Source: a virus. From it: DNA of 31,487 bases. The notes under the pieces were generated by a model. It had not been told where the DNA came from, ran no database searches, and saw nothing but the letters and a program-made list of their open reading frames with translations. The stretch lies in IMG/VR virus record IMGVR_UViG_3300031565_000223, positions 1-31,487 of that record; one strand, written 5' to 3'. Positions 4,488 through 22,249 of the stretch are shown here, one piece after another. The position numbers were made by a program, and so were the translations under genes. The stretch's first letter is position 1. Each line of letters begins with the position of its first letter.

Positions 4488-5390
4488 ATGAAACATTGGA
4501 CCATTTACTGTCATATACACGTTGAATCTGGACGTCGTTATATTGGTTTGACTCAATATACGATGTTGCATCGATGGAATCAACATATTGCTCAGGCAAA
4601 AAATCTTAAAAACGAGAAGAGGTCACATTTCGCCGCCGCGATTCGTAAATATGGAAAAGATGCTTTTTCTCATGAAATCTTGGCGATGAGTTGGGATCTT
4701 GAAGGCGCGAATGTAACCGAACGAATTATAATTGAACAATGGGATACGAGAAATCCTGAAATAGGGTTCAACTTAGCTAAGGGTGGAGGATCAAAACCGA
4801 GTCTAAATCCTAAGAATCCGTGGAATCGTTCTGAATATCGGGACAAGTTAATGAATATATTTTCCAGTTCAAATTTTAAAATCAAGGTGTCTTCGAACGT
4901 GAAAGGACGAATTTTAAGTTCAGAAGTTCGTTCTGCAATATCTTCTCGTATGATTGGACACACGAAATCTTTGGAAGTTCGATCAAAGTTGTCTTCTGCA
5001 TTAAAAGGACACATCATGTCTGAAGAGACATGTAAGAAGATTGCTGAAGCACGTAAATTTCAAATTTTTAAACCGGAAACGCGCAAAAAGCTTTCACAAA
5101 AATCGGCAGGTCGAAGACATACAGATGAATCAAAGATCAGAATGTCCATAATTCAGAAGCAGAAAGCTGATGAACGTGTGGCTGGAGAAAAAGTTAGGTA
5201 TCGTGCAGTACATAGACCAACTCAAACACAAACTCATAAATTATGTAAAAAACATGGACAAATTCCTTTAGAAGAATGCTTTTCTTTGATTCGTAACAAT
5301 ATTGTTTATTATGAATGTCGCCTATGCCGTCGTTTTTATACCAAAAATTTTAAAGAAAATGTACGCAAGACAATCGTTTTTGACCTTTGA
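4488..5390 (+). CDS. free-standing GIY-YIG homing endonuclease
   Basis: This 300-residue protein has the GIY-YIG catalytic core at the N-terminus: IYCHIH (6-11), RRYIG (16-20), the conserved Arg at R29 in the HRW context, and the conserved Glu at E78 before an N-P...GFN...GG segment. From about residue 100 to 220 there are repeated DNA-binding segments of the NUMOD3 kind (S-x-E-x-R-x-K-L-S, K-G-H-x-x-S-E-E-T). The C-terminus holds a probable zinc finger, C253-x-x-H256-G and C277-x-x-C280. Such enzymes nick or cut a conserved site in phages lacking them and spread by repair. It sits 15 bases after the putative small terminase and ends 9 bases before TerL, so it probably homes into the terminase region. 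The gene looks more AT-rich than its neighbours, in line with mobility. Confidence 0.92.
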   Translation: MKHWTIYCHIHVESGRRYIGLTQYTMLHRWNQHIAQAKNLKNEKRSHFAAAIRKYGKDAFSHEILAMSWDLEGANVTERIIIEQWDTRNPEIGFNLAKGGGSKPSLNPKNPWNRSEYRDKLMNIFSSSNFKIKVSSNVKGRILSSEVRSAISSRMIGHTKSLEVRSKLSSALKGHIMSEETCKKIAEARKFQIFKPETRKKLSQKSAGRRHTDESKIRMSIIQKQKADERVAGEKVRYRAVHRPTQTQTHKLCKKHGQIPLEECFSLIRNNIVYYECRLCRRFYTKNFKENVRKTIVFDL

Positions 5391-5399
5391 TCGAACAGG

Positions 5400-7349
5400 A
5401 TGCCGATTAAGGAGCCTAAATTTCAAAGTCACCTAACCGGGGAAGTCACAGATTTCCTTGATAGGAAGCGTCGTGAAAAACATGGTGAAGGCGGTGAAGG
5501 AGGAGAGGAAAATTTCCTTACTATCATTGAGTTTATCGAAAAATTTAAACTTTTCCCGCATGGGCTTTTCCCTGTACAAAAATTTATTGTTAAATTATAC
5601 TATAACGTTCCGCTTGATAATGTTAACAAAAATATCACAGTAAAAGATAAGTTCAGTGAACACACTCTTTACACATTTACTGAGACTGAATATCTTCAAT
5701 ACCTATACGACCAAGGTCGTTGCAACATTAAAGAGCAAGACGGAAAAGTTCGACGCGAACTTATTTTGATTCTTGGACGTCGTTCAGGTAAGAGTGCTAT
5801 GGCAGCCGTGTTCGCTGCCTATGAACTGTATAAATTATTAAGACGTGGATCTCCGCAAGTTCATTATGGACTACCGCCGGGATCTGAAATTCGCGTGTTG
5901 GATATCGCTAATGATAAAGAACAGGCTGCTATCGTTTATGGTGATATTCAAGCTCATATTCAATCTGTAGACTATTTTAAGAATAACGTTGCCCATGACA
6001 CTCAAACTTACGTTAAATTTCGTACTGATGGTGATAGAAAACGATTCGGGCCTAATGGCAAAGCAACTATAACGGCCACATTCAAGAGTTCTATCGCCAA
6101 AGGCCTTCGTGGACGAGGCGTAATTTGTGCCATTTTAGATGAGATAGCATTTTTTATTGACGATGGAAACTCTTCTGCCGAACAAGTTTATCGTGGCCTT
6201 TCACCATCGCTTAAACAATTCACTCCGAAAGATCCGGATAATAAACACAATCCAATAGGTCCGACCGATGGTCGCATGATTCTTATCTCTTCTCCTGATG
6301 CTAAAGAGGGGTTTTTTTACCGCTTGTCTCAACAAGCGATGTCTGGTGGTATTGAATCGTCAAATACTCTTATCCTTCAAGCTCCGACTTGGGAAGTTAA
6401 CCCAACTTTGTCTCCTGAAGATTATCGTGTAGAATACGCAAAGCACCCGAAGTCATTCATGACTGAATATGGTGCTGAGTTCTCAGATCGTGTCCGTGGT
6501 TTTATTGAAAACTGGGGTGATTTGCAAGACTGCATAGTACCGGCACTCCGTCCTGCTGTCCGTGGTTATCCTCGAGAAGCTCACTGGGCTGGTGTCGACT
6601 TCGGTATTTCGAATGACGGAACAGCCATATCTCTCACCCGGTTATCTGGTGGAAAAATAGAGCTCGCGTATCATGAAGTTTGGTATCCCCGTAAGAGTTG
6701 GAAAGAGTCGAATCCACACCTTGATGTCCCAAGCGTTCCGTACGCTGCCACTCTTCAAGATCGCACGCGTCTTGACCTTGATGAAATAGCCAATTGGTTC
6801 CATATACTATCTCGCAGATTTTATATTTTGAGTGGGGTTTTCGACCAATGGGCTGGACCGGTATTTGAACAAGTTCTACATAAGAAGAATTTGAATCAAT
6901 TCGAAATGCGGAATTTTTTCCAATCTGAGACATCTCAGATGTGGCAAACGTTTAAAATGACAATGTTCAATCGTCAGCTTGCTTTATATGACTGGCCGAT
7001 ACCGGCTCAAGCTTCTTCGGAAAGTGGTAGTGTGCGCCATTCTCCATTGATCTCAGAACTTCTCGAGTTACAGTCATCATCTAGTGGTAAAAATATTATT
7101 GTGGTGGAAGCTCCTAAAATTGCTGGAAAGCATGATGATATGTCTGATTCATTGGCTCGTTCCGTCATGCTTGCCATGGAGCATGTCCGTGATAATCCAG
7201 GTATTTTAGAATCTTCCGGTAGACAGATCGCTTCCCAACATGGTCCGAGAATTCAAAACGTTGGATATAATCAGTACCATCGTCAACGGGCTCGTTCTCA
7301 TGGTATTAATGCACTCCGTACGGCACCCAGGCATGCAAGAAAATACTAG
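5400..7349 (+). CDS. terL: terminase large subunit (TerL), ATPase and nuclease
   Basis: This 649-residue protein is the packaging motor that cuts concatemeric DNA and pumps it through the portal into the prohead. The ATPase domain shows Walker A GRRSGKS at residues 126-132 and Walker B ICAILDE with D247 and E248. The RNase H-like nuclease domain shows the first acidic residue in GVDFG (D400) and a C-terminal acidic cluster HDDMSDS (D579, D580, D583). An acidic-basic low-complexity stretch (RREKHGEGGEGGEE, about residues 24-37) precedes the conserved part. Length and motif order fit TerL of T4-like or large phages. It begins 9 bases after the GIY-YIG gene, with only AGG abutting the ATG. The last 17 bases overlap the next gene. 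Confidence 0.96.
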   Translation: MPIKEPKFQSHLTGEVTDFLDRKRREKHGEGGEGGEENFLTIIEFIEKFKLFPHGLFPVQKFIVKLYYNVPLDNVNKNITVKDKFSEHTLYTFTETEYLQYLYDQGRCNIKEQDGKVRRELILILGRRSGKSAMAAVFAAYELYKLLRRGSPQVHYGLPPGSEIRVLDIANDKEQAAIVYGDIQAHIQSVDYFKNNVAHDTQTYVKFRTDGDRKRFGPNGKATITATFKSSIAKGLRGRGVICAILDEIAFFIDDGNSSAEQVYRGLSPSLKQFTPKDPDNKHNPIGPTDGRMILISSPDAKEGFFYRLSQQAMSGGIESSNTLILQAPTWEVNPTLSPEDYRVEYAKHPKSFMTEYGAEFSDRVRGFIENWGDLQDCIVPALRPAVRGYPREAHWAGVDFGISNDGTAISLTRLSGGKIELAYHEVWYPRKSWKESNPHLDVPSVPYAATLQDRTRLDLDEIANWFHILSRRFYILSGVFDQWAGPVFEQVLHKKNLNQFEMRNFFQSETSQMWQTFKMTMFNRQLALYDWPIPAQASSESGSVRHSPLISELLELQSSSSGKNIIVVEAPKIAGKHDDMSDSLARSVMLAMEHVRDNPGILESSGRQIASQHGPRIQNVGYNQYHRQRARSHGINALRTAPRHARKY

Positions 7350-7665
7350 CCCTTTCGTTTCTTCTCTAACTGTGAAAATTTCTAATTCAGATTCAGGGGT
7401 TGATGTAAAGGATACAACTGCCTATAAAATCGCTCGTCAAATCATGGATCATATATATGGTGATGATGAAGATATGTCCAATGAAGACTTTGTCGGTTTG
7501 TACCATGATTTCCTTCGTCGTGGGGGTTCTTGGAAGTCCCTTATGGATGGTGATATGAGATCCGTCAAATTTATTGAGGATGCACTCGAGTCTCTGGTTA
7601 AATCTAGGGGTCTAGGGAAAATTGCTACTAGGATATCTACACGATCTGCACATTTGGTAGCGTAA
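7333..7665 (+). CDS. small protein of unknown function, overlaps terL
   Basis: ATG 7333 is chosen because upstream extension would run about 110 bases into TerL. The start gives 110 residues beginning MQENTSPF and a 17-base overlap with TerL, typical of translational coupling. The protein is acidic in the middle (YGDDEDMSNEDF) with a basic Arg/Ser tail (KIATRISTRS). No domain is recognised. Position between terminase and portal suggests a packaging or head-assembly role, which is inference. Confidence 0.65.
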   Translation: MQENTSPFVSSLTVKISNSDSGVDVKDTTAYKIARQIMDHIYGDDEDMSNEDFVGLYHDFLRRGGSWKSLMDGDMRSVKFIEDALESLVKSRGLGKIATRISTRSAHLVA

Positions 7666-7666
7666 T

Positions 7667-8029
7667 ATGGTCAGTATGGCAACAGATATACCAAACAGGA
7701 AACTCAGTGCAGCTGAGTCACATGCCCGTCAAGATGACTTGGATCAAGCCATAAAGTTGTTTAAATCTATTCATGACCGCCTTGAAACTGTTACCCCGAT
7801 AATCGAATCAATTATTTTAGACGCTGGTCGTCTTCGTCAAATGTGTGAAAGAAATTCTGTTCTTAGAGCAGCCATGGTTTCTCGCCGTCTTTCCATTCGA
7901 ATTGTAACTCAAGATATGATTGGCGTGCGAACCAAGATTTCATCCATTTCTAAGTTTGTTGGAAAAACTTTGCATGCAAAAGCTTCTGAACTTGAAGAAA
8001 CTGTTTTAGACCCGGAATTACTTCGGTGA
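7667..8029 (+). CDS. small helical protein of unknown function
   Basis: This 120-residue protein starts one base after the previous stop; a second in-frame ATG at 7676 is possible. It appears entirely helical (long amphipathic stretches from about residue 15 to 115), with no cysteine cluster, membrane segment or signal peptide. It lies 30 bases before the portal gene in the same operon. It could be a chaperone or accessory factor of head assembly, but nothing in the sequence proves this. Confidence 0.65.
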   Translation: MVSMATDIPNRKLSAAESHARQDDLDQAIKLFKSIHDRLETVTPIIESIILDAGRLRQMCERNSVLRAAMVSRRLSIRIVTQDMIGVRTKISSISKFVGKTLHAKASELEETVLDPELLR

Positions 8030-8059
8030 AACGTTTTTCGAATCAAGTGTTGGTATATC

Positions 8060-9853
8060 ATGGCTAAGAAACCTAAAGCTAGACTACCTGTTGTTGAAGT
8101 TAAAGAACAGGCTGCTACCAAATCTAAGCTTACTAAGCTTGAGAGAATGGCTAGGTTAGAGTCTTCTCAATCTATTCGTGTTGCTTCTTACGCAGGTGGC
8201 TTCGGTAATACTGGATCTGGAGCCATATCGAATGCTGATTCTGCATTCTATAGTCCACAGTTATCCACAGATTTCCTTGAACTTCCGCAGTCGGAAAGAG
8301 AAAAACGAGAACTCTTTCGGTTTTGGTACAATACTCATCCTATCGTTGGGTCAGCCATAGACTTCCACACGGATGTTCCGATGAGCAAGATTCGGCTATC
8401 TCTCCCGAAAGGGAAAGACCCGAAAATGAATAAAAACATTCTTCATTTTTATGAAAGAATGTGCAAGCGTGTTCGATTGTTTCAAACCTTATATGACGCG
8501 ACGCATGAATATTGGCTACATGGGAATTGTTTTATCTTCTGTGAAGATCAAGATCTATCATCTGATATGACCGATGATATGCTTCTTGAGCCATCAGTGA
8601 AGGGTGCTGATGATGAAGAAGTTCTTGAAGTTGACTACGCCGGTCGTGCGAAAACAAAAAAGGAACGTCGTCGTGCTCTGAAGCCTGAGAACGAACGAGA
8701 TAAAACGATTCGTGAGTATGTTGCCAAGAATTATCAAGGCTGGGAAAGATTACAAATTTTACCTCCTGAACAAGTTAAACTTGAGGTATTTCAGTATACT
8801 AACAAAACTAAAATAGAACTCATACCTTCTGAGAAGGATAAACTTCTCGTCATGAAGGCGACTGATCAGCGTGACGAAGAATCAATTCGTATTGCTGAAG
8901 ACATTCCTGAACAAATTCGAGAGAGTTTGTTGTCTGGCCAGCCGATTCCACTTAACTCGAGTCCATACGACGCATTTTTATGCTCGTCATTCTGTTATCA
9001 TCTTGCTCACAAAAAATCAGCTTATGACGACCGTGGAATATCCCTTCTAGAACGCTGTCTTCGAACTCTTCTTTATCAAGACAAACTTCGACAAGCCCAG
9101 ACCAGCATTGCTTCTCGGGCAATGACGCCAAAACGTATTATCTGGGCTGACAAAATGTCAGAGCCGGATGTTGACGCCCTGCGTGATCAGATTGATCAAG
9201 CTATCATAGATCCTGATTTCACCATTGTCACGAACTTTGAAGTTCATTGGGATGAAATCGGGTCTAGAGATCGCCTCCTTGATCTTGGTACTGAGTATGA
9301 TATAACGAACAAGCTTCTTTTTATCGGATTGCGCATCACCGAAACCATGCTTACCGGAGAATCAACGTATTCTGGAGAACGTATTCATCTAGATGTTATG
9401 AATACTATGTATCTCTTGTACCGGGAAAATATCGTTCAATTTGTGGAAGAGCAGTTATTCGAACCTGTGGCTGAAAAGAAGGGCTTTTTTGATACTGATG
9501 AATTTGGTAATAAGACGTATTTATACCCGAAGCTTCAGTTTACTCGTCTTGCGCTTCGTGATAATTCTGAACTTCAGGATTACATGTTTAACCTATACCA
9601 GAAGGGATCATTACCGATATCTTTCATACTGGAATTGTTGAATATTGATTCTGACGAAACCCTTGTTCAACTGAAAAAGGATATGTTTACGCCGAATGAT
9701 TCCACATTCAATGAGTTCCTAAAAGGTCTTCTCCAAAAAGCCGGGGATGCGGCTCTTGAACAAACGGATGCTCTTGAGAAACTCGCTGAAGGCGCTGGTC
9801 TTAAAATGACCAAGAAAAAAGGAGATAGATTCGGAGAAGATGAGGAAGCATAG
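8060..9853 (+). CDS. portal protein
   Basis: This 597-residue protein follows TerL, and its N-terminal third reads as a portal of large myoviruses: FYSPQLSTDFLELPQS, then F-W-Y-x-T-H-P-I-V-G-S-A-I-D-F-H. The portal forms the twelve-subunit ring at one head vertex through which DNA passes and to which the tail attaches. The C-terminal part contains the expected helical stem and crown regions and an acidic, Lys-rich end (KKKGDRFGEDEEA). A charged insertion around residues 190-225 is probably a loop. An IRVASYAGGFG segment near residue 40 resembles short R-[IV]-A-S segments in neighbouring head proteins. Shine-Dalgarno is weak. A 45-base gap without recognisable signals follows. Confidence 0.88.
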   Translation: MAKKPKARLPVVEVKEQAATKSKLTKLERMARLESSQSIRVASYAGGFGNTGSGAISNADSAFYSPQLSTDFLELPQSEREKRELFRFWYNTHPIVGSAIDFHTDVPMSKIRLSLPKGKDPKMNKNILHFYERMCKRVRLFQTLYDATHEYWLHGNCFIFCEDQDLSSDMTDDMLLEPSVKGADDEEVLEVDYAGRAKTKKERRRALKPENERDKTIREYVAKNYQGWERLQILPPEQVKLEVFQYTNKTKIELIPSEKDKLLVMKATDQRDEESIRIAEDIPEQIRESLLSGQPIPLNSSPYDAFLCSSFCYHLAHKKSAYDDRGISLLERCLRTLLYQDKLRQAQTSIASRAMTPKRIIWADKMSEPDVDALRDQIDQAIIDPDFTIVTNFEVHWDEIGSRDRLLDLGTEYDITNKLLFIGLRITETMLTGESTYSGERIHLDVMNTMYLLYRENIVQFVEEQLFEPVAEKKGFFDTDEFGNKTYLYPKLQFTRLALRDNSELQDYMFNLYQKGSLPISFILELLNIDSDETLVQLKKDMFTPNDSTFNEFLKGLLQKAGDAALEQTDALEKLAEGAGLKMTKKKGDRFGEDEEA

Positions 9854-9898
9854 TATATTTCAATACGCTTTTTTTACATATTAGTATGTGGTTGCATC

Positions 9899-12229: not shown

Positions 12230-12272
12230 GCTTTTCATGTCTTCACTAAACAAGACCGGAGAGAGAATTTCA

Positions 12273-12791
12273 ATGATTAAGAAACAAACTGCCAATAAGG
12301 TTCTCGCGAATCTTGACGAGACAGCGAACAAAATTGATTTACTTGTTAAGTCAGGTAAAATCGACAAGCGTGTTGCGTCCACTCTTGTGAGGGATATCGA
12401 CGCTTTTGCTGACCGTTTCCAGGTCGCGGCCTTCGGTCCAGACGCTTTGAAGCGTCACGTTGCGAAGGTCTCGAAGGTTTCGAGAGTCCTTGAACAGGAT
12501 TCTGACGAACCCTATATGAAAACCTTCGACAACCCGAATAAGGTTATCCAGTCGGATTCCGACGAACCTTACATGCATAGGACTGACAAGTCTTTTAATG
12601 CCGATGCGATCGATAACTACGATCAGGATCGCACCACCACGGTTACTGACCGTAAAGAGTATGCGGTTCGTGACCTGTCGGAGTGGTCGGATAAGACCAA
12701 ACAGCAGCCTTCTTGGGCGAAAGGCCCTGCAGGCAAGAGCACTCATCAGGGTTCGACTCGTAAATCTTCAGTAAAGACCTGGGCACCCTGA
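12273..12791 (+). CDS. small basic head-region protein of unknown function
   Basis: ATG 12273 is preferred because GGAGAGAG lies 7 bases before it; the alternative ATG 12237 would add 12 residues and has only a distant GGAG. The product, 172 residues from MIKKQTANKV, has a helical N-terminal half. Its C-terminal half is Ser/Thr/Asp-rich and probably disordered. It holds two copies of DSDEPYM (about residues 76-82 and 95-101). There are no cysteines and no recognised domain. Codons use more G and C than in the preceding gene, as for the capsid genes, which may mean higher expression. It could be an abundant internal head or scaffold-associated protein, but this is unproven. Confidence 0.6.
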   Translation: MIKKQTANKVLANLDETANKIDLLVKSGKIDKRVASTLVRDIDAFADRFQVAAFGPDALKRHVAKVSKVSRVLEQDSDEPYMKTFDNPNKVIQSDSDEPYMHRTDKSFNADAIDNYDQDRTTTVTDRKEYAVRDLSEWSDKTKQQPSWAKGPAGKSTHQGSTRKSSVKTWAP

Positions 12792-13515: not shown

Positions 13516-13518
13516 TTT

Positions 13519-14109
13519 ATGAATAAGCAACTCGAAGCGAATACCAAAAAGCTACTGAGCATCGCAGCCCGTATATCTAAAGAGAATCCTATTCTCGGGT
13601 ACGATCTCGAATGCGCCACTCGATCGTTTGTCGCGGGCAAAGACCTGAGGATGCAAAGTGAATGGGCTGATTATGCTCAAAACGTTGAGAAAATCAGAGA
13701 AGAACTTGACAAGATCTTGAAGAGCAAGCCTGGTGATGAAAAAATCATTGAGTTTCTTGATGGGATCGATGGTGAAGTTGAAAAAGTAAAAATTTCGTCT
13801 TCGCGAATCGCGTCAGATGATTCCCCAGAAGCGTTGTGGGCGGCTTGGGAAGTGCAGTGGAAAGAGTTGAAGAAAAAAGCAGATGATGCTAAATGGTTAA
13901 AGGAAAATGGCTCTGAAGCACTACTGGCAGAAATTGACGCGCTTCATAAAGGTCTTGACGACGTTATTGAGCTGGGTACTGAAGATATTGAGCAGATTCA
14001 GACCTCTTCCGTTAACAAGCGGAGATTATCTTCGTTGATCCGTTTCGCTAACGCGATTCCAAACTCTCGCCAGAAATTGCTTCCTATAATCAAGAAGATG
14101 CTCGGGTAG
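13519..14109 (+). CDS. helical head-region protein sharing two motifs with the 9899-12229 protein
   Basis: This 196-residue, almost wholly helical protein starts at ATG 13519 with GGAG 6 bases before it. Residues 10-37 (KLLSIAARISKENPILGYDL) resemble FLRIASELKNTNPIAALDI of the large Lys-rich protein. The C-terminal residues 164-196 (LSSLIRFANAIPNSRQKLLP) resemble LARLALYIPDTRSILLP of the same protein. A short SSSRIASD segment lies between. The shared ends suggest both are targeted to the same place or partner during head assembly. The gene ends four bases from the end of the convergent gene on the other strand. Confidence 0.6.
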   Translation: MNKQLEANTKKLLSIAARISKENPILGYDLECATRSFVAGKDLRMQSEWADYAQNVEKIREELDKILKSKPGDEKIIEFLDGIDGEVEKVKISSSRIASDDSPEALWAAWEVQWKELKKKADDAKWLKENGSEALLAEIDALHKGLDDVIELGTEDIEQIQTSSVNKRRLSSLIRFANAIPNSRQKLLPIIKKMLG

Positions 14110-14113
14110 TCGT

Positions 14114-14635
14114 TCAGCTCTCCATTATTTCTTGTGCTACCCTCATTTTTCTTACCTCATCCCATACTTCTCCGAAATCGGCTGGTTTTAGGTCTTCGTA
14201 CTGAAGTGCCTTTCCCTCATTCTCACAAAATCTCTTAAGCTTTTCTAAGAAAAGCGTTTTGCGGATTTTGCGTTGAGCGGCTTGCTGCCGTTTTGCGACA
14301 GTCCCTTTATTTGTGGCCTTTTTCATGGCCAGCTCAATACGTTTTCGAATATTTGCCGAAATCTTTGCCAAATCGTATCTATCTTGATACGCTAACTCAA
14401 TTCGCTTCGCTCCGGCAAACCTTATTACCTCTACTTGGATTTTGTAATCCTTGTTTGCCTTCGCATCCAAGTACCAAGTCATGGGGATAGTCTTAGATTT
14501 ACCTGATTTCTCGAGAGTAATTCTCGGCCATAGACCGGATTTCGGGACGCCCATTTTAACATGGTCCTTGGATAATTTGATCTGGACCTTTTTCAGTTTA
14601 ACGTCTTTGAGTATTTCGGTAATGATTTTGCTCAT
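14114..14635 (-). CDS. reverse-strand basic protein of unknown function
   Basis: This 173-residue protein is strongly basic. Its N-terminal half is mixed alpha/beta (KVQIKLSKDHVKMG...RITLEKSGKSKTIPMTWYLDA). A long basic helix (about residues 90-135, many Lys, Arg and Ala) and a final amphipathic segment follow. The charge suggests nucleic-acid contact, but no motif confirms it. It is the only reverse-strand gene within the head cluster, convergent with the preceding gene (4-base gap) and divergent from the protease gene (71 bases). A later insertion is plausible. No clear promoter was seen. Confidence 0.65.
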   Translation of the reverse strand: MSKIITEILKDVKLKKVQIKLSKDHVKMGVPKSGLWPRITLEKSGKSKTIPMTWYLDAKANKDYKIQVEVIRFAGAKRIELAYQDRYDLAKISANIRKRIELAMKKATNKGTVAKRQQAAQRKIRKTLFLEKLKRFCENEGKALQYEDLKPADFGEVWDEVRKMRVAQEIMES

Positions 14636-14706
14636 GTATATAGTACTCTGAATACCTCAAAATTTACGATCATACTATTAGAGTTATTTTTAGACGTTTT
14701 GGTGCA

Positions 14707-17454
14707 ATGGGATTTCGACGCACCGCTAATGCCATAGTCTCTCGACCTGGCGTTGAATTTGATGAGTGGATGGACACGCTTCGCGCTCAAAATGAGGGTG
14801 CGGTACCGCGTGACCATATAAATCGTGTAGCCAAGACTGTTTTACGCAAGTGTGATCCGAAGCAGTATCTTCTTTCACATGCCACCATTGTGGCTTCTGT
14901 TGATACATATGCTCCAAGAAATGTGAAAACTGGGCGCTCGATGAACCAGGGCATTCAGATTGATGTGCGCTGGCCGGATTTTCGCATCAAGCCTGAGTGT
15001 CATGAAATCATCAATAATAACGGCGACGCATGGGAGCGTTCGCTGTTGTTATCAACATATCGTACATTCATCGGTGCCCATAATTATCTTGAACACATTC
15101 AGCTTCCTGCCCTGTCGAAGGGATTTATTGTCGATGCGATCGCTCGTGATCTTGGTAAATCAGCTTACATCGATATCCTTGTTGCCACGGACCGAAAACA
15201 TGGTCAATTAGTTGCGGATATTTTAGCTGGTGAAATCCAAGCCATGTCGATGGGCTGCCATATTCCTGGAACGCAGGTGTATCTCTCCGACGGTAGTCCG
15301 ATCAGTATTGAAGATGTTCGTCCAAATATGGAGGTTCTGACTCAGAAGGGAAACTCCTGTCGGGTCGAAAATCTTCAAATTCGTGAAAATAGATGGAAAG
15401 TCCAGACCATTAAATCAGTCGGTCTTCCATCCATTACATCGACAGACAATCACAACTATTACATAATTCGTTGCGAGACTGTGGAAAAGACCCGAGGTCG
15501 TGGAGGAAAGAATTCTAAACTCCATGTCGTGGAGAAGGACTATCCATTTGATTATGCAGAAGCCCGGACCGTTCGGGAAGGTGACTTCCTCGCTTTCCCC
15601 ATTTCACAGGACGAAGTCCAGTCTGATGTGACTCTATCCGAGGCTCGTCTGCTTGGTCTTTGGATCGGAGATGGGTGGAAGTTCGAGAACAACCATGACT
15701 CCACGATTGGTGTTGGATTTTGCCTAGATGAATCTCACCCCGAAATCGTTCAGGAAGCGATTCAAGCGTTAGACCAAGTTGCTTGGGTGAATCGAGAGCT
15801 TCATGTTGCCATGGGAGGTAACGCTCCTCGGCCTCAGAGCACTTCCGTGTCCAACAGGCGCGGGGCGTCATACCTCATGAATACTTCTCGCTCCTTCCGG
15901 GCGATCGTGGATCGTCATACTTCTGGGAGGACATCATCCGATAAGCTCATCGGGAAATCGGTCATGTCTTGGCCGAAAGACCATCAAATGGCATTCCTTT
16001 CCGGTCTTATAGACTCGGACGGATGTGTTTCGACCAGTAAGCGTGGGACTAAGAATGTTTTTCTTAGCACTAGGAATTTAAAGCTCGCGCATCAATACAT
16101 GCAGATTGCAGCTCGATGTGGCATCATTCCCACTTTCTCAGTTGCAGAACGCAGTGGCACGAAAATGTTGCCTGAGGCAACCGGGACTGATTACCAAATC
16201 AAGCTCCGGAACTCAGATGTTGTTCGAGTTCCGTCCTTGAAGGTTCGTGCAGCTATCGATGGGATTCGGCCCACTAGGGCCGGACGCAATAGTCGATGGA
16301 TTACCGATAAATATATTTATTCTAAAGTTAAGAAAATTGATCGATCTGACTATGCAGGGTTTGTATATGACCTTCAGGTTGACCAAGATCATTCATATGT
16401 GGCGAATGGTGTTGGGGTTTCTAATTGCATCAGCCTTTTTACTGTTTGCAATCGTTGTGGCAACGTAGCCTCTGATGATTCCCAGCTCTGTCCGTGTGTT
16501 TTATACCTTGGTAAGGGTAGCAAATTTGCGGATGATCAGGGTAATGAGCATCCTTTAGCTGAGCTCATTGGTCACGTATCTGTTCCGAATTCGAATCAGT
16601 TCATTGAAGCATCGTGGGTTCGAAACCCGGCTTTCCGTGGCGCAGTTCGTCGGAATATTTTAAATCCTGATGAGTCTAAAATAGCTTCTCAACTTTCTGA
16701 GGCTCATCGGGCGAGAGCATCTCGCGTTATTCCTACGTCTGGAATGAAAAAAGCCGCATCTCGTCGTTTTGCTCAACAAGGCGATGATGAATCGAGTCAA
16801 GATATGGATCTTGATGAACTTCTCGGCCAAGACCAAGGCGGTGGCCAAGATCAGGGTGGCCAAGATCAGGGTGGCCAAGATCAGGGTGGCCAAGATCAGG
16901 GTGGCCAAGATCAGAGTGGCCAAGATGGTCCAGATGAGCCTAAAGCTGACAAAATTGATGAAATGCTCGAGAAGGTTCAAGAGCAACTGTTATCAATATT
17001 AGTTGATAAGCTTGGCGAAAAACTTGAACCGAAACCCGAAGATGTCGGGTCCGTAACCGCTCCCAATCTCATGAGTGGGAATGATAATCTGATACGCTCT
17101 TCAGATGACTTTGACCGGCGTGTACGCCGAATCTTCCCTGAAGCCCGCACTCTTCATAGATGGGCTTCAAGAACATATCGGATTGTCCATGAAGGTGGTC
17201 TGAGAGCTGTTAGAGCTTCTAAATTGACTTCTAAAGATTTGATAGTCCTTTCATGGATTGAAGATCGCGTACGGGGAAGAAACTATTCCTCTCGTTTATA
17301 TAAGACTGCGATGAGAGTAGGATCAATGACGAATTTTCCCAGCGAGACTTCATTTCTTGCCGCATGCAGAATGAAGACTGGCCGGGTTCTTTCCCCCAGT
17401 GAGGAACGGTTCTTCACGTGGAAGGGACGGATTGCTTCCGTCTCCGGACTTTAA
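14707..17454 (+). CDS. prohead maturation protease precursor containing an intein
   Basis: This 915-residue precursor splices to a mature protein of about 525 residues. The N-extein (1-183) contains the prohead-protease core: INNNGDAWERSLLL, then GAHNYLEH with candidate catalytic H130, then KSAYIDILVATDRKHG. It ends in AMSMG, where S181 is the candidate nucleophile. The C-extein resumes with C574 as CISLFTVCNRCGN...LCPC, a Cys-rich ribbon usual after this serine in proteases of large phages, then GHVSVPNSNQFIEASWVRNPAF. Such proteases cleave scaffold and head proteins before DNA packaging. The C-terminal part is a Gln/Gly/Asp tandem-repeat linker (about 712-742), an acidic helix and a basic helical tail ending in RIASVSGL. 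The start has only a weak upstream GGTG. Confidence 0.9.
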   Translation: MGFRRTANAIVSRPGVEFDEWMDTLRAQNEGAVPRDHINRVAKTVLRKCDPKQYLLSHATIVASVDTYAPRNVKTGRSMNQGIQIDVRWPDFRIKPECHEIINNNGDAWERSLLLSTYRTFIGAHNYLEHIQLPALSKGFIVDAIARDLGKSAYIDILVATDRKHGQLVADILAGEIQAMSMGCHIPGTQVYLSDGSPISIEDVRPNMEVLTQKGNSCRVENLQIRENRWKVQTIKSVGLPSITSTDNHNYYIIRCETVEKTRGRGGKNSKLHVVEKDYPFDYAEARTVREGDFLAFPISQDEVQSDVTLSEARLLGLWIGDGWKFENNHDSTIGVGFCLDESHPEIVQEAIQALDQVAWVNRELHVAMGGNAPRPQSTSVSNRRGASYLMNTSRSFRAIVDRHTSGRTSSDKLIGKSVMSWPKDHQMAFLSGLIDSDGCVSTSKRGTKNVFLSTRNLKLAHQYMQIAARCGIIPTFSVAERSGTKMLPEATGTDYQIKLRNSDVVRVPSLKVRAAIDGIRPTRAGRNSRWITDKYIYSKVKKIDRSDYAGFVYDLQVDQDHSYVANGVGVSNCISLFTVCNRCGNVASDDSQLCPCVLYLGKGSKFADDQGNEHPLAELIGHVSVPNSNQFIEASWVRNPAFRGAVRRNILNPDESKIASQLSEAHRARASRVIPTSGMKKAASRRFAQQGDDESSQDMDLDELLGQDQGGGQDQGGQDQGGQDQGGQDQGGQDQSGQDGPDEPKADKIDEMLEKVQEQLLSILVDKLGEKLEPKPEDVGSVTAPNLMSGNDNLIRSSDDFDRRVRRIFPEARTLHRWASRTYRIVHEGGLRAVRASKLTSKDLIVLSWIEDRVRGRNYSSRLYKTAMRVGSMTNFPSETSFLAACRMKTGRVLSPSEERFFTWKGRIASVSGL
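15256..16425 (+). mobile_element. LAGLIDADG-type intein inside the protease (residues 184-573)
   Basis: The intein starts at C184 (CHIPGTQVYLSDG, block A) and ends at N573 in HSYVANGVGVSN (blocks F and G), followed by Cys as the +1 extein residue. A TSTDNHNYY segment fits block B. The usual penultimate His is Ser here; the block F His is present at 562. Two DOD endonuclease motifs occur: LLGLWIGDG at 315-323 and LSGLIDSDG at 431-439. The intein is therefore full-length (390 residues), and both splicing and homing activities appear intact. It lies three residues after the presumed catalytic serine S181, a highly conserved site that suits a homing target. Confidence 0.93.
16840..16929 (+). repeat. 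15-bp tandem repeat encoding Gly-Gly-Gln-Asp-Gln
   Basis: Five perfect copies of ggtggccaagatcag (16840-16914) are followed by one diverged copy. They encode a flexible, acidic, Gln-rich linker after the protease core. Near-identical DNA units imply recent expansion and likely copy-number variation between relatives. Confidence 0.9.
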
Positions 17455-17494
17455 GGTTCTCATTAGGGTATTCTATTAGGAGGCGTTGTTAATT

Positions 17495-18685
17495 ATGCGA
17501 GCTCGATCCACCTGGCAGAAGAATAGCGATACACCGCGTCAGGCGGCGACTTCGCGTAAGGCTGACATCTATACCATGAACCAGGACCATCCGCAGCCGA
17601 CTCCGGTCGACTACGTGAATGGTGATCCTGACTCCTGGGCGGAGACTCCTGTCTCCGGGGATAAGATGTCCGTCAATGCTGAATATGACGGTGCACAGGT
17701 CAAGCGCAATGAACTCGGATTTGGCGAGTTTCGCGATGACACCTTTAAGCACAAAGACTCTGACCAGTGGAATGGTAAGGGTAAGTATGACAACACTAAG
17801 GTAGCTGCTGAGCGCAAGGCTAGTGCTTGCGAGCGGTTGGCTCGGGCGACACTTCGGACTGCCAATTCGCAGCTCATTGAGGGTGCCGCAATTGACTTTA
17901 TGGCGCTGCCAGACAGGTCGATCGTTGCCATGCTGAAGCGTCTTGACGCTGTTTCTCCTGATGCGCTACCGCAGCAGGCTAAGTTTAAACGCGCCTTAGC
18001 TTGTACCAAGCTTGCGGCTCGTTTACTCGGCTCTGCGGCCAACTCGGATAACGTTGAGAGGCTTGGATCAGTCATGATGACGATTGATGATCCTACTCTC
18101 AAGTCAATGGTCCGTACCATTGCTTCTGCTCGCGTGGCTGAAGGCCAGCAAGAAGAGCAGCAGGATGACGATGGACAGGTCGCTGGACAGGGCGACGACC
18201 AGCAGGATGATGATGATCAGCAGCAGCAAGAGTCCCATGGTCTCAATCCGAATGAGCAGGCCATGTTGAGTGATATGCTGTCGGAAGAAGGCGGCGGCGC
18301 TGGCGCTGCATGTCCTCCTTGCCCGCCCGGTGCGCCCGGTGCGCCCGGTGCGCCCGGTGCAGCACAGCCTATGGATGATCTCTCTGCATTATTCAGCGGC
18401 GCTCCTCAGGGTGCTCCTCCTGGCGAGATTTCGTTTGATGGTGACGACGATGTTGCTCCTACACAGACGAGCATGGCGTCTGATCTGGATGCTATCTTTG
18501 CTGATGACCCTGAAGTTCAGGCTCAACGTCAAATCGCTTCAGCTCGGTCTGAAGCTATGGGTCGAGATAGTTTCACTGGTCGAGTCGCTTCGGCTAATAA
18601 TGGTGCGAAAAAGCTCGGCACCGTTAAGAAGTCTGCGTCTACATCAGTGGACCAGGTTCTCGAGACTCTCTGGGAGAGACCATAA
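17495..18685 (+). CDS. putative scaffold or prohead core protein
   Basis: ATG 17495 is chosen because AGGAGG (17478-17483) lies 11 bases before it; a TTG 9 bases further upstream is unlikely. The 396-residue product has an N-terminal polar region and a helical middle rich in Ala/Arg/Leu. Then come an acidic Gln/Asp-rich stretch (about residues 210-245) and a short collagen-like GAPGAPGAPG run (about 275-287). An acidic region and a basic Ala/Ser-rich end follow. Position between the maturation protease and capsid genes, low complexity and lack of catalytic motifs suit a scaffold cleaved during maturation. Candidate processing segments include QRQIASARS and TGRVASANN. The function is inferred, not shown. 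Confidence 0.6.
   Translation: MRARSTWQKNSDTPRQAATSRKADIYTMNQDHPQPTPVDYVNGDPDSWAETPVSGDKMSVNAEYDGAQVKRNELGFGEFRDDTFKHKDSDQWNGKGKYDNTKVAAERKASACERLARATLRTANSQLIEGAAIDFMALPDRSIVAMLKRLDAVSPDALPQQAKFKRALACTKLAARLLGSAANSDNVERLGSVMMTIDDPTLKSMVRTIASARVAEGQQEEQQDDDGQVAGQGDDQQDDDDQQQQESHGLNPNEQAMLSDMLSEEGGGAGAACPPCPPGAPGAPGAPGAAQPMDDLSALFSGAPQGAPPGEISFDGDDDVAPTQTSMASDLDAIFADDPEVQAQRQIASARSEAMGRDSFTGRVASANNGAKKLGTVKKSASTSVDQVLETLWERP
18324..18359 (+). repeat. four perfect 9-bp repeats encoding collagen-like Gly-Ala-Pro
   Basis: The unit cgcccggtg occurs four times in tandem. It encodes the GAP triplets of the scaffold-like protein. The run is too short to form a stable collagen helix alone and is probably a linker. 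Confidence 0.85.
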
Positions 18686-18687
18686 TT

Positions 18688-18724
18688 TATTAAGTCTTGA
18701 TACCGAAAGGGTTAAGACTTAATA
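18688..18724 (+). terminator. 11-bp inverted repeat after the scaffold-like gene
   Basis: The arms at 18688-18698 and 18714-18724 (core ATTAAGTCTT / AAGACTTAAT) pair perfectly around a 15-base loop, three bases after the stop codon. It may act as a terminator, though it lacks a T-tract. It overlaps both boxes of a candidate promoter, so it could instead be an operator. Confidence 0.4.
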
Positions 18725-18725
18725 T
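18697..18725 (+). promoter_or_regulatory. candidate sigma70-like promoter for the capsid genes
   Basis: TTGATA (18697-18702) and TAATAT (18720-18725) are separated by 17 bases. Transcription from here would give a leader of about 160 bases before the first capsid-region gene. The boxes lie in the arms of an inverted repeat, which could be regulatory. Confidence 0.45.
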
Positions 18726-18894
18726 TGATACTAATAAAGATACGTAGACAGGCACCAACTCATGATTTTTCAGGTGATAGCGCTCTAAAAGAGAGAGGAA
18801 GTTGGATAACTTCGCAGGAAACTGGACTGAAGTTACGGCTTTAATCGAACTGATAGATACGTTGATCCTGTAATCAACAGAAGGAATTAGAAAA
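18726..18894 (+). promoter_or_regulatory. structured 5' leader of the capsid genes
   Basis: No reading frame is evident in this stretch. Potential stems are: CCAACT/AGTTGG (18755/18800) enclosing a CTCT-AAAA-GAGA hairpin; TAACTTC/GAAGTTA (18807/18829), whose inner CAG-GAAA-CTG (18815-18824) closes a GNRA tetraloop; and GTTGAT/ATCAAC (18861/18873). An AAGGA Shine-Dalgarno at 18881 lies directly after the last stem. CACC at 18753 could pair instead with GGTG at 18773, so alternative folds exist. This may stabilise or regulate the abundant capsid mRNA. No known RNA family is recognised. Confidence 0.5.
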
Positions 18895-19566
18895 ATGGGA
18901 ACTGTAGGCGGTCAGGCATCAGGCGATTTTCGTCTGAATACATCTGCCCTGCGCATCCTGTACTCGCTGATCAAGGATTCAATTCCTACGTTGGCGGCAG
19001 ACGGGTTTACGCAGAGCAATCCAAGCGTCCAAACGACGCCCTCGGCAAAGAGCACCACGATCCCCGTGAATGTCAAAAAGGGCATTCTTGGTGGTTCGGT
19101 TGCTTTCATTCGGCCCGATATCGGTCCGAACACGGTTGGTGGCGGGGCATTAGTCCTGGCTGCTTTTGTGAAGAACGTTCGTCCTCTCGGACTCTTCATT
19201 AACGACGCTGCTGGTAATGCATTTGAGAACACACCTGCTGTGGCTTCGGGCAAGGGTCCGTTCCTCCGTGGTGGCTCGGTGGGCGTCAAGCTCTATGAGA
19301 CTCAGGTTCAGTCGACCATCGGTGGTGGCGTGGTAGGCGCTGCTCTCGTTCCTTCTTATGAAGTTGGTCAACGGCTGTATGCCTCAGTGAATGGTCTGCT
19401 AACTAACCGTTGGCAGGACTCTTACGAGGCGGCTTGGATCAATCTGTTCACTCTTGGTAGTGGCGGTGCTGGCGTCTCCATTGAGCCGGACATCACTCAC
19501 ATGGGTACTATCCTTTCACCCCCTGACGCGACAAGCGCGGAAATGTTCCTCGAGCTCAATTTCTGA
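18895..19566 (+). CDS. putative capsid-associated (decoration or minor head) protein
   Basis: This 223-residue protein follows the structured leader and a good AAGGA site. It is Gly/Ser/Ala/Val-rich and predicted to be mostly beta (for example GGSVGVKLYETQVQSTIGGG), with no cysteine and no signal peptide. It ends 23 bases before the major capsid gene, and codon choice is G+C-rich like that gene, which suggests high expression. Position and composition suit a decoration or cement protein, or another abundant head component. The family is not recognised, so the role is inference. Confidence 0.6.
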   Translation: MGTVGGQASGDFRLNTSALRILYSLIKDSIPTLAADGFTQSNPSVQTTPSAKSTTIPVNVKKGILGGSVAFIRPDIGPNTVGGGALVLAAFVKNVRPLGLFINDAAGNAFENTPAVASGKGPFLRGGSVGVKLYETQVQSTIGGGVVGAALVPSYEVGQRLYASVNGLLTNRWQDSYEAAWINLFTLGSGGAGVSIEPDITHMGTILSPPDATSAEMFLELNF

Positions 19567-19589
19567 GCAGGAACAGGAAGGATAAGATC

Positions 19590-20483
19590 ATGACTAATCC
19601 ATTTGGTGTGAACGTTGTTGATAACGCCGTTAAAGAGAAGGTCGTCGACCAATATATTGGTTCGTCGGCAGGTCGTCGTCGTCTTGCTGCATCGATGATT
19701 CAATCGTTGCGTGAGCGTCGCGACTACTCGTCCGTTGGCCGTAAGACCTTCTTGGTCGAGCAGCTTCCGGACGGTGCGCTTCCCATTTACGACAAGGATC
19801 CCGATGTCGTCGCGTACGTCATTGGTGAAGAAGGCGAGTCGATTACTGCCGTGGCGAAGCCGCGTCGCGTGATTTTCCCGCTCTTCGAGATCGCGGCTCT
19901 GCCCAAGGCTCCGCTGACGCAGATTAAGGAACGTCGTTACGACCTCCTTAAGCGTATGCAGGATCTTGGTAAGGCGCAGATCCAGGCTGCCGAAGACGAC
20001 CGCGTCTTCAGCATCATGGATGCCATCGCGGTGAACGGCTTCGATTCGCTTCCGGGCGGAACGAACCCTGACATCCCGGTTGTTGCTCCGATTTCGCCTG
20101 CCGTCCTTGCGGACGCGTTTGCCGAAATTGAAGCGCACGACCTCCGTGTTGCTCGCGTCTACATGAACGCTACGGACTACGCGGACATCCGCAAGTTCGG
20201 TCGCGACGTGCTGGACATCGAGTCGCAGGCGACGCTTTGGAAGACCGGCATGATGAGCACGGGCTGGAATGCTCAGTTCATCGTCAGCCGTCTCGTTCCG
20301 AAGGGCGTTGTCTACATTTGCTGCGAGCCTGAGCACTTCGGTCGGATTCCGGTCCGTACGGAGCTCACGGTCCTCTCGGCGGACAACCCCGAGGAACGTA
20401 CTATCGGATTCTCTATGTTCGAAAACCTCGGCATTGGCGCGTACAACCCGCGCGGCCTGGTGCGTCTCATTGTGACACGCTGA
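19590..20483 (+). CDS. major capsid protein, HK97-like fold
   Basis: This 297-residue protein forms the shell of the head. It reads as a compact HK97-type capsid protein. An N-terminal helical arm (residues 1-45, ending in RERRDYSSVGRKTF) may or may not be trimmed. Next come the LPDGALPIYDKDPDVVAYVI strand region, the helix with LTQIKERRYDLLKRMQD, and the central P-domain/A-domain part (ARVYMNATDYADIRKFGRD). A typical C-terminal strand set follows (PVRTELTVLSADNP...FSMFENLGIGAYNPRGL). It has a strong AAGGA site 7 bases before the ATG. Codons are much more G+C-ending than the genome around it, as expected for the most highly made protein. A strong hairpin follows the stop. Confidence 0.88.
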   Translation: MTNPFGVNVVDNAVKEKVVDQYIGSSAGRRRLAASMIQSLRERRDYSSVGRKTFLVEQLPDGALPIYDKDPDVVAYVIGEEGESITAVAKPRRVIFPLFEIAALPKAPLTQIKERRYDLLKRMQDLGKAQIQAAEDDRVFSIMDAIAVNGFDSLPGGTNPDIPVVAPISPAVLADAFAEIEAHDLRVARVYMNATDYADIRKFGRDVLDIESQATLWKTGMMSTGWNAQFIVSRLVPKGVVYICCEPEHFGRIPVRTELTVLSADNPEERTIGFSMFENLGIGAYNPRGLVRLIVTR

Positions 20484-20520
20484 ACATTCTGAAGCCCCTT
20501 TGAGGCTTTCCTGAGCCTCC

Positions 20521-20560
20521 CATCGACCCTCGTCGGATTAATTTCTGACGAGGGTCGATG
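20521..20560 (+). terminator. perfect 14-bp hairpin after the capsid gene
   Basis: CATCGACCCTCGTC (20521-20534) pairs exactly with 20547-20560 around a 12-base loop, 37 bases after the capsid stop. An AT-rich stretch (agtatttatat) follows but no pure T-tract. It is a likely transcript end or 3' stabilising structure. A weaker AAGCC/GGCTT stem precedes it at 20492-20508. Confidence 0.65.
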
Positions 20561-20591
20561 AGTATTTATATCTTGGAGTTGTGTGGAGTTC

Positions 20592-20620
20592 TTGCATGTT
20601 TGAGTTCATCATGTTAGAAT
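20592..20620 (+). promoter_or_regulatory. sigma70-like promoter giving a leaderless HNH-methyltransferase mRNA
   Basis: TTGCAT (20592-20597) and TAGAAT (20615-20620) are spaced by 17 bases. The ATG at 20627 is the seventh base after the -10 box, exactly where transcription should begin. There is no Shine-Dalgarno before the ATG. Confidence 0.55.
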
Positions 20621-20626
20621 GGCCTA

Positions 20627-22249
20627 ATGCCACAATGCCGTATTCATGGTGAACTACCCGAAACGTCCTTCTCGAAACGAGCTACAGGATATATTCCTCC
20701 GGTTTGTAAACAATGTGAGCGAGATAGCGCTCGTGAAAATCGAAAAGCGAGATATCAAGATCCTACAACTCGGGGTCTGATCCGATCTCAGAATAAATCG
20801 TGGCAACAAAATAATTCGGGTTATCTCTCTGATAAGTTCAAGAAAAAATATTCCTCCGATGAAGTATTTCGGAATCGGATTTTGGATAGAGTATCCTTAT
20901 ATAAAACCGACCCACAAGCTCACAGGTTAAAACGGGAACGAGCCGCGACATACTTCCAACAAAACAAAAGTAAAATTTATGAACGAATACAAGCCAAACA
21001 AGCCAAATATCCGGAACTGAAATTGCGCGGCGTTATTCGTTCTCGTGTTTGGGGTGCATTGAAACAATCGAAAGGTGGAGATTCTGTACTGAATCACCTT
21101 CCATATTCACTTCAAGATTTGAAGCATTACATCGAGTCAAAATTCGAATCATGGATGACTTGGGATAACTGGGGGCCAGCGTCAAATCAGCGACAGACTT
21201 GGCAAATTGACCACATTATCCCTCAGTCAATGTTTCCGTATGAATCCATGGGCTCGGATAATTTTCTTCTTTGTTGGTCCTTGAATAATCTTCGCCCTCT
21301 GGAATCGAAAAGAAATTTCACCGAAGGGAATCGTTCTGACTCATTTAATGGGTGTGAGACATTTTCTCAATTTTTGAGTTATGTTCGTAATACTGGGTAT
21401 GTGTCTGGAGTTATCGATCCGTCATATGAACGATTGAGTTTAATGAATGTTGATGATACGCTTCCTCAGCCGTTTGACGGTCTTTCATATCTTGACTCAC
21501 TTTTCCCACATAGATTCAATTCTCGTTCCGGTCAAAATCGTTCATTTATTGATTTTTGGAATGATGATCTTGAAATTCTTCGTGTTGTTGCTTATGTTGT
21601 GGCTGATGGACGTATTCCCACTCCAAAAATTATATCTACGAATGTCAAATTTAATTCATCACTCCCCGCCCATTTCTATCCGTCCGCAGCTTCGGCTCTC
21701 GTACGGAAGTATGCTTCTGGTGGAGATGTAATTGATCCATTTCTTGGGTGGGGTGGTCGAACGCTCGGAGCTCTTTGTGGCGGAGCGAAATCGATTTGTG
21801 GAACGGACTTGCAGTCCGAGTCGGTCGATGGCTGTCGTCGTTTGGTGGATGACTACGCAAAAATCCGTCTGGTGGACTCGGAATTTACCTGTCAAGATTT
21901 CGCGACATACTTACAAAACACCGAACGTCGTTTCGATTTGTTGATGACGAGTCCACCCTTCATGGCGACTGAAGACTACGGAGTGAAAGGGCACTCTGAC
22001 GTTCGTTCCTGGTCAGAACAGATCGTCCAGCCATTGGTGCGCGGCGCGTTGCGTGTCGTCAAATCCGGTGGTCATATAGCCATTCATGGGCAAGATCGTC
22101 GCAATATGCCGGTTTTGACAACTCTTTTGACAGCTTTCACGGCTGCTGGAATGGAGAAAGTTGCGGAATACCGATACGGGAAGACCGCAGGGCAGTCCGT
22201 TGTTGTATTCCTGAGGACTGGGAAGAACATAAGTACCTATTCAGTATAA
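20627..22249 (+). CDS. HNH endonuclease fused to a DNA methyltransferase
   Basis: This 540-residue fusion has three parts. Residues 4-30 hold a probable zinc finger (C4-x-x-H7-G...C27-x-x-C30). Residues 125-240 hold an HNH nuclease: IDHIIPQ with D195 and H196, then SLNNLRPLESKRN. Residues 285-535 form a class I amino-methyltransferase: AdoMet motif I as DPFLGWGGRTLGA (370-382) and catalytic motif IV TSPPF (441-445), which is typical of N4-cytosine or N6-adenine enzymes. It lies directly after the major capsid gene, has its own apparent promoter and is probably a mobile element. The methyltransferase may protect the cut site, making a one-polypeptide restriction-modification-like homing enzyme. 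Free-standing HNH enzymes are usual in phages; the fusion is the unusual part. Specificity cannot be read from sequence. Confidence 0.88.
   Translation: MPQCRIHGELPETSFSKRATGYIPPVCKQCERDSARENRKARYQDPTTRGLIRSQNKSWQQNNSGYLSDKFKKKYSSDEVFRNRILDRVSLYKTDPQAHRLKRERAATYFQQNKSKIYERIQAKQAKYPELKLRGVIRSRVWGALKQSKGGDSVLNHLPYSLQDLKHYIESKFESWMTWDNWGPASNQRQTWQIDHIIPQSMFPYESMGSDNFLLCWSLNNLRPLESKRNFTEGNRSDSFNGCETFSQFLSYVRNTGYVSGVIDPSYERLSLMNVDDTLPQPFDGLSYLDSLFPHRFNSRSGQNRSFIDFWNDDLEILRVVAYVVADGRIPTPKIISTNVKFNSSLPAHFYPSAASALVRKYASGGDVIDPFLGWGGRTLGALCGGAKSICGTDLQSESVDGCRRLVDDYAKIRLVDSEFTCQDFATYLQNTERRFDLLMTSPPFMATEDYGVKGHSDVRSWSEQIVQPLVRGALRVVKSGGHIAIHGQDRRNMPVLTTLLTAFTAAGMEKVAEYRYGKTAGQSVVVFLRTGKNISTYSV

Follow-up and report, generated by a model that had tools for sequence, protein, structure and literature searches.

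Turnover of nuclease and modification genes behind the capsid gene, and a recently moved protease intein, in the head module of a huge phage and its relatives

How three unrelated homing-type genes came to lie side by side among the packaging and capsid genes of one phage is the question raised by virus record IMGVR_UViG_3300031565_000223, the whole of which (31,487 bases) is called the window here. The window is regarded as the head module of a huge phage because its major capsid protein (MCP) resembles those of the huge-phage record LR745208 (76% identity), Tunturiibacter phage Tunturi_5 (45%), and Bacillus phage G (36%). A preliminary description placed a GIY-YIG endonuclease open reading frame (ORF) 5' of terL, a LAGLIDADG intein in the prohead protease, and an HNH-methyltransferase ORF 3' of the MCP gene, and all three are present as it stated. 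Its further statement that they target three core head genes applies as such to the protease, which the intein interrupts; the GIY-YIG and HNH-methyltransferase ORFs sit between genes, and targeting of all three is a deduction because only the intein interrupts a head gene. Relatives (loci numbered with L) were taken from IMG/VR, comprising six loci found via terL, the best 80 of 437 found via the MCP, and 25 found via a terL alignment, and terL was located in 37 of 40 relatives' contigs. The features in question are as follows.

3888 to 4472, plus strand: ORF 5' of terL, left border of the GIY-YIG insertion place; conserved beside terL in relatives, weak sub-threshold matches only
4488 to 5390, plus strand: free-standing GIY-YIG endonuclease with NUMOD3 repeats and a C-terminal CxxH...CxxC zinc-ribbon-like end (Pfam, PHROGs)
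5400 to 7349, plus strand: terL (phrog_2, 5e-24), no intein in the window copy; relatives' inteins near amino acids 128, 221, and 254
8060 to 9853, plus strand: portal protein (phrog_16240, 6e-30), no intein in the window copy; relatives' inteins near amino acids 92, 107, 150, and 330
14707 to 15255, plus strand: prohead protease N-extein (phrog_18299 head maturation protease, 4e-4), uninterrupted in L010, L014, L003, L025, L028, and L031
15256 to 16425, plus strand: bifunctional LAGLIDADG intein of 390 amino acids before an invariant Cys (MSMG/C) (domain and motif matches)
16426 to 17454, plus strand: prohead protease C-extein
19590 to 20483, plus strand: MCP, HK97 fold (NF042927, 136.7 bits, cut-off 80; phrog_2522, 6e-47)
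20521 to 20560, plus strand: terminator-like hairpin of 17 pairs between the MCP stop and the slot ORF (sequence scan)
20627 to 22249, plus strand: HNH-methyltransferase slot ORF, starting 143 nt past the MCP stop
20627 to 21436, plus strand: N-terminal part of the slot ORF with a CxxH...CxxC end, a helical array, and the HNH nuclease, about amino acids 1-270 (alignment with seven relatives; model)
21437 to 22249, plus strand: C-terminal part of the slot ORF with a linker and a class-I methyltransferase (DPFLGWGG, TSPPF), about amino acids 271-540 (motifs, fold)

The explanation judged rather probable for the whole arrangement is that three independent mobile homing-type genes reached the head module at different times, and that the fusion in the place behind the MCP gene (the post-capsid slot) would be a self-protecting homing or competition nuclease. 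The window slot ORF carries a DHxxP...N...N motif (D-H, P, and N invariant) that was conserved in all eight aligned sequences (the window and seven relatives). It matched HNH_4 (17.4 bits, E 0.0044; cut-off 22) and N6_N4_Mtase (E 0.0018) in Pfam, all Pfam matches being under their cut-offs. HNH domains led the structural match list of the HNH part, weakly (Z at most 3.9), and the model of this part was weak (predicted template modeling score, pTM, 0.36). The methyltransferase part adopted a class-I fold with confidence (predicted local distance difference test, pLDDT, mostly >90), and the structure search of the whole slot model informs this part only. The window methyltransferase also gave weak matches to PADLOC Type II methyltransferase models (best 2.9e-5), and the related methyltransferase domain of L071 exceeded the Pfam DNA methylase cut-off (28.1 vs. 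26.7). No Mom match was found for the window slot ORF in Pfam or PHROGs, and among INPHARED phages none of 61 records matched at least 80% of the window HNH-methyltransferase and none of 19 did so for the L045 protein. Terminator-like hairpins occurred at six sites in 20400-22500, compared with 1.8 expected from shuffles.

The relatives show that the post-capsid slot is a fixed place with a changing content. A census was made of 55 clusters at 97% MCP DNA identity, one of which was too short, so that 54 were judged, with classes assigned by hand. A slot nuclease or its remnant was found in 37 of the 54 clusters. In the other 17, neither similarity to known slot nucleases nor a Pfam scan of ten downstream ORFs revealed a nuclease; this group includes L026 and L016, although short ORFs downstream in both belong to the broad nuclease similarity cluster. 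The slot nucleases are of three unrelated kinds (HNH, EDxHD/Vsr-like, and LAGLIDADG), and a methyltransferase or Mom domain lies in the slot of 20 of the 54 clusters. EDxHD is the name that we take to fit the Vsr-like nuclease, the matches themselves giving DUF559 and a PADLOC homing-endonuclease model. The filled slots were classed as follows.

HNH + methyltransferase: 5 clusters
Zinc finger + methyltransferase, HNH lost: 2 clusters
EDxHD + Mom: 8 clusters
Broken EDxHD + Mom: 1 cluster
EDxHD-Mom, then zinc finger-methyltransferase: 1 cluster
LAGLIDADG_2 + methyltransferase: 3 clusters
HNH alone: 2 clusters
HNH remnant: 3 clusters
LAGLIDADG_2 alone: 5 clusters
LAGLIDADG_2 remnant: 3 clusters
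Nuclease cut by contig end: 4 clusters

Fusion of nuclease and modification enzyme is thus seen in several forms. The slot ORF of L018 is a Mom-nuclease fusion (Mom PF25680, 4.6e-24, with DUF559), and in LR745208 a LAGLIDADG-methyltransferase is matched (25.5% over 79%) at a distance of about 1.1 kb past the MCP gene. The slot of L043 was classed as HNH after Pfam on downstream ORFs. Loss is seen among nearly identical phages: on the two sides of the slot, L079 and L077 agree at 99.9-100% of positions (1030 and 1620 nt), but 1350 bp of the nuclease gene are missing from L077; L074 (MCP 93.4% identical) has no slot element and the same next gene as these two. The HNH part is truncated in L009 and L008, and its DH is changed to DY in L062. 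The modifier was kept and the cutter lost in L019, L067, the second ORF of L052, and L022, in which the EDxHD part is broken and the Mom frame is open; the L221 cluster was counted as broken EDxHD + Mom because its slot DNA is identical to that of L022. Recombination within the slot protein is also observed. Relative to L012, the nuclease part of the window protein is 38% identical (15 of 39 4-fold sites, 14.6 by chance), and the methyltransferase core (shared over amino acids 341-505) is 87% identical (52 of 78 4-fold sites, 25.4 by chance); between L012 and L167 the values are 65% for the nuclease part and 64% for the core. The window slot protein is therefore recombinant relative to L012, since its nuclease and its methyltransferase core have different nearest relatives.

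Gene conversion of the MCP gene by slot homing was considered as well. At 4-fold sites, identity was 66-70% in the MCP gene against 39-41% by chance in comparisons among the window, L005/L009, and L007/L012, and it was near chance in terL and portal. This was not used as proof because strong expression of a gene can constrain its codons and so produce the same pattern. MCP identity at these sites was somewhat above chance in most of the distant pairs too, and the MCP tree mostly recovered the same close groups as the terL, portal, and protease trees.

The HNH-methyltransferase gene sits in a slot whose content is gained, replaced, and lost time and again. In the proposed mechanism, its nuclease would cut a co-infecting phage (competitor or sibling) without the element, at a place close to the capsid gene, and its methyltransferase would mark the site of the carrier and thereby protect it; after the cut, repair would copy the element, or the rival would simply be excluded. 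Turnover of the slot, fusion, and recombination are observed; cutting, methylation, and self-protection are predicted. The loss of cutters and retention of modifiers fit either self-protecting homing or a competition nuclease. Homing nucleases normally spare the carrier since insertion destroys or changes the target. It is tentatively proposed that the slot ORFs are convergent self-immunizing homing nucleases, in which the HNH, EDxHD, and LAGLIDADG folds were each joined to a DNA-modifying enzyme and attack the sequence around the conserved capsid gene; nuclease-dead forms would then be immune free-riders, and exchange of the methyltransferase core would spread immunity. If this is true, modification lets the element hit a highly conserved capsid region, where divergence alone cannot shield the carrier.

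A possible, if doubtful, alternative is that the slot protein combines restriction and modification in a single chain as a weapon against host or superinfecting phage DNA and has no homing role, the post-capsid place being a convenient and well-expressed cargo site. Such a role was proposed for the Mom-nuclease fusions of jumbo phages by Iyer et al. (2021; PMC7824862), these fusions are multicopy and dispersed (up to eight Mom matches in a 362-kb contig), and the methyltransferase parts match PADLOC Type II methyltransferase models, L045 also matching the MADS2 model (1.9e-12). However, in the relatives L018 (1.1e-6) and L045 (1.6e-12) the N-terminal part matches models of homing endonucleases, and unrelated nucleases replace each other and decay in one fixed place. 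An IMG/VR search with a methyltransferase-rich alignment yielded 24 loci, and all 11 with at least 30% identity to this query, which was itself built from slot proteins, lie behind an MCP gene; the 13 weaker ones lie elsewhere. The same alignment recovered only three weak methyltransferase relatives (28-30%) in bacterial and archaeal genomes.

The second element, the protease intein, moved recently. The protease ORF (14707-17454) contains an intein that matches LAGLIDADG_3 (52.3 bits, cut-off 22.5) and the C-terminal splicing region TIGR01443 (26.7 bits, cut-off 15.6). Its splicing motifs are complete (Cys1, TxxH, block F, and the terminal Asn before Cys), and it has two LAGLIDADG motifs (LLGLWIGDG and LSGLIDSDG). 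The residue before the last intein Asn, which is usually though not obligatorily His, is Ser in all eight aligned inteins of this site (site 184). Empty sites read through as AMSMGCIS in L010, L014, L003, L025, L031, and L060 and as AMSMGCVS in L028, with the empty allele read as AMSMGCISLFT, and the site is filled in 11 of 47 cases and empty in 36. The recent transfer follows from a comparison with L012, in which the intein DNA is identical at 1116 of 1170 positions (95.4%), whereas the adjoining exteins reach only 418 of 549 (76.1%, N-extein) and 213 of 300 (71.0%, first 300 nt of the C-extein). At 4-fold sites, 166 of 190 are identical in the intein, compared with 34 of 80 and 50 of 119 in the exteins, which is near chance, and the shift in identity falls within a few bases of the intein edges. 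The same-site intein of L009 has just 52% protein identity to that of the window. From these motifs, the intein is predicted both to splice and to cut: its LAGLIDADG nuclease would cut empty protease genes, repair would copy the intein in, and protein splicing would restore the protease.

Inteins are frequent in the head genes of the relatives. Eleven intein sites were found across terL, portal, and protease, four of them in the prohead protease, and these have 1 to 11 fillings each and are mostly empty. Among contigs in which at least nine sites were seen, 20 of 33 carry at least one intein, with 40 inteins altogether, and three contigs carry at least four per head module. This intein count is a lower bound because in contig 3300032365_000024 (72 kb) one of two inteins in terL was missed. 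All 72 large inserts (overlapping loci included) are in frame without stops. The terL ORFs of relatives reach 1704 amino acids, and the head proteins are very intein-rich.

The preliminary description suggested that the module is a homing hot spot, and this is partly supported. In 19 relatives' contigs (5.87 Mb), the head module occupies 353 kb (6%), with limits set by hand from terL to 3 kb behind the MCP gene, 1 kb of tolerance, and nearby matches merged into elements. Intein-type LAGLIDADG_3 elements are strongly concentrated there (22 of 36, 2.4 expected), the binomial P of 2e-17 being a rough guide only as it treats related contigs as independent. LAGLIDADG_2 is enriched more weakly (5 of 13, 0.9 expected), with three of the five in one genome. 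A hot spot for every class was rejected, GIY-YIG (1 of 36) and HNH PF01844 (2 of 32) being at or below expectation in the module and Mom (2 of 32) showing no enrichment either. The head module is thus hot for inteins and not for all homing classes, because LAGLIDADG_3 is enriched and GIY-YIG, Mom, and HNH are not. Mom-domain genes are multicopy in G003, G022, G033, G042, and others, up to eight matches falling in one contig, and in some the matched frame contains one or two stop codons (TAG, TGA, TAA), which may reflect decay or recoding.

The third element is the free-standing homing gene before terL, which is probably older in the lineage. The GIY-YIG ORF exceeds the Pfam cut-off of its catalytic domain (GIY-YIG, 22.8-23.3 bits, cut-off 22.6) and that of NUMOD3 (23.3 bits, cut-off 20.4); it also matches phrog_314 homing endonuclease (3e-23) and, under the cut-off, NCBIfam grpIintron_endo (E 2.9e-10). 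In the window, the order is ORF 3888-4472, GIY-YIG ORF 4488-5390, and terL 5400-7349. Junctions were tallied by hand in 34 contigs after duplicate loci and L001 and L002, which are the same phage as the window, had been dropped. The GIY-YIG gene occurs in three of them (the window, L007, and L146/L112), three have a 376-438-nt spacer without a recognized endonuclease, and 28 have a gap of at most 198 nt, which is too small for an endonuclease ORF. The gene is absent from the junction in L005, L003, L004, and L006, and in L005 (terL 83% identical to the window) the two junction genes abut as an element-free allele. Short junction spacers of 99-438 nt without a recognized endonuclease occur in L105/L144, L091/L115, L104/L139, and L152, those of L139 and L152 coding for similar small proteins as judged by eye. 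Because the gene diverges between the window and L007 along with its flanks and to an equal extent, it was probably inherited from a common ancestor, or else moved long ago. An intron model was not adopted since no RNA family (Rfam) and no tRNA (ARAGORN) was found in the window. A CxxHG...CxxC segment occurs in both the C-terminus of the GIY-YIG protein (about amino acids 250-285) and the N-terminus of the HNH-methyltransferase (amino acids 1-32), and the similarity (hhalign probability 60%, 31 columns), suggestive only, may point to a shared DNA-binding ribbon.

Vertical inheritance with frequent loss and no present-day homing is an improbable account of these elements. The L007 GIY-YIG copy is as diverged as its flanks, and decayed remnants are common in the slot, as this account expects, but against it stand a 95.4% identical intein within 71-76% identical exteins (one pair, window and L012) and a methyltransferase core and a nuclease of the same gene with different nearest relatives. 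On trees of 22 phages, carriers of an element group together no more than randomly reassigned carriers would, and presence does not track descent of the phages: Fitch changes numbered 6 for the protease intein (6.6-6.7 shuffled) and 5-6 for the slot nucleases (6.7 shuffled), and those of the GIY-YIG gene were likewise no different from shuffled labels. The empty alleles that the preliminary description proposed to look for do exist at the GIY-YIG place and the intein site; for the capsid slot the answer is partial, with 17 of 54 clusters in which no nuclease was found and others that are decayed or differently filled. Identical genes everywhere by descent, with no empty alleles, are not what the relatives show. 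A function of the nucleases in assembling or packaging the head, like that of HNH proteins beside some terminases, is very improbable: they sit inside the head module, and an HNH protein acting with the HK97 terminase is discussed by Barth et al. (2023; PMC10448857), but in close relatives they are absent, truncated (L009, L008), or motif-altered (L062, DH to DY), and 17 of 54 slots and 28 of 34 terL junctions are without a nuclease.

Several observations weigh against three independent homing-type genes and a self-protecting slot nuclease. Flanking sequence is often co-converted in homing, whereas identity drops abruptly at the intein edges and hardly any flank is shared. The GIY-YIG gene of the window and that of L007 look like products of common descent. 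No enrichment in the head module was seen for matches to GIY-YIG, HNH, or Mom. The slot can also be filled by a nuclease that has no modification domain (L048, L043, and the five LAGLIDADG_2-alone clusters), and the modifier is therefore not obligatory. Structurally, the window methyltransferase comes closest to the Trm11/TrmN/Trm14 group of RNA methyltransferases (Z 17-18.6), and the NCBIfam models that it matches best, far below cut-off, describe RNA enzymes as well; the substrate may thus be DNA or RNA, and protection of DNA is not assured.

Single-chain Type II restriction-modification enzymes, which have nuclease and methyltransferase on one polypeptide together with a recognized specificity domain and serve cells, are similar to the slot ORF in joining the two activities in one chain. 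Homing genes near terminase and capsid genes, inteins in terL and portal, homing weapons between huge phages, and Mom-nuclease fusions are already in print. According to Barth, Dunham and Seed (2023; PMC10448857), several nuclease classes cluster near terminase and capsid genes with turnover at one place, and 35% of T5orf172 neighborhoods hold a terminase gene and 31% a capsid gene; the words methyltransferase and hotspot are absent from that paper, whereas in the present modules inteins predominate and the nucleases of the slot are joined to modification domains. Mobile inteins at several terL ATPase sites near the P-loop/Walker B, and in portal, are described by Kelley et al. (2016; PMC5050341); the present case differs in the phage group, in the four protease sites, and in head modules that hold up to four inteins, this maximum being a lower bound. 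The fusions of Mom and nuclease in jumbo phages (Iyer et al., 2021; PMC7824862) likewise have a nuclease and a DNA-modification enzyme in one chain, self-protection was proposed for them, and the EDxHD-Mom slot proteins of the relatives belong to this kind. In contrast, the window has HNH and methyltransferase, and in the passages of that paper on these fusions the role is restriction rather than homing, with methyltransferase fusions and the post-capsid slot unmentioned. Huge phages that infect one cell together can also compete by means of a homing-type nuclease, as PhiPA3 does with gp210 against PhiKZ (Birkholz et al., 2024; PMC11620839); gp210 is intron-encoded, and 'methyl' is absent from the text, so that no modification domain is mentioned there. 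Searches of an open-access library, subscription papers lying outside its scope, gave no earlier description of the post-capsid slot or of a methyltransferase fused to an HNH or LAGLIDADG nuclease. A homing-type gene with its own modification enzyme would, if true, join selfish homing and restriction-modification, ideas that are now kept apart, and phage-phage exclusion at a conserved capsid locus would become directly testable with one polypeptide. The clade supplies natural intact, nuclease-less, decayed, and element-free alleles, some of them in nearly identical phages.

Other features of the window lie outside the three elements. A perfect sigma-70 consensus promoter (TTGACA, 17 nt, TATAAT; 12/12) at 22305-22356 overlaps two palindromes (TTGACA..TGTCAAG) and precedes ORF 22431-22880; situated directly past the slot, it looks like a regulated promoter. 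The minus-strand ORF at 26735-27235 encodes a predicted 2'-5' RNA ligase/2H phosphoesterase (33.9 bits, cut-off 27). Its score against the model of the anti-CBASS protein Acb1 falls just short (26.2 bits, cut-off 27), and the product is possibly an anti-defense protein. A peptidyl-tRNA hydrolase, PTH2 (23190-23612, minus strand; 104.6 bits, cut-off 23), is unusual cargo for a phage head region. The region at 3-1460 has a PcfJ-like domain followed by leucine-rich-repeat-variant repeats (171.6 bits), with a relative in the contig of L007/L012, and a Kelch beta-propeller protein is encoded at 23919-25370 (50.4 bits, cut-off 50).

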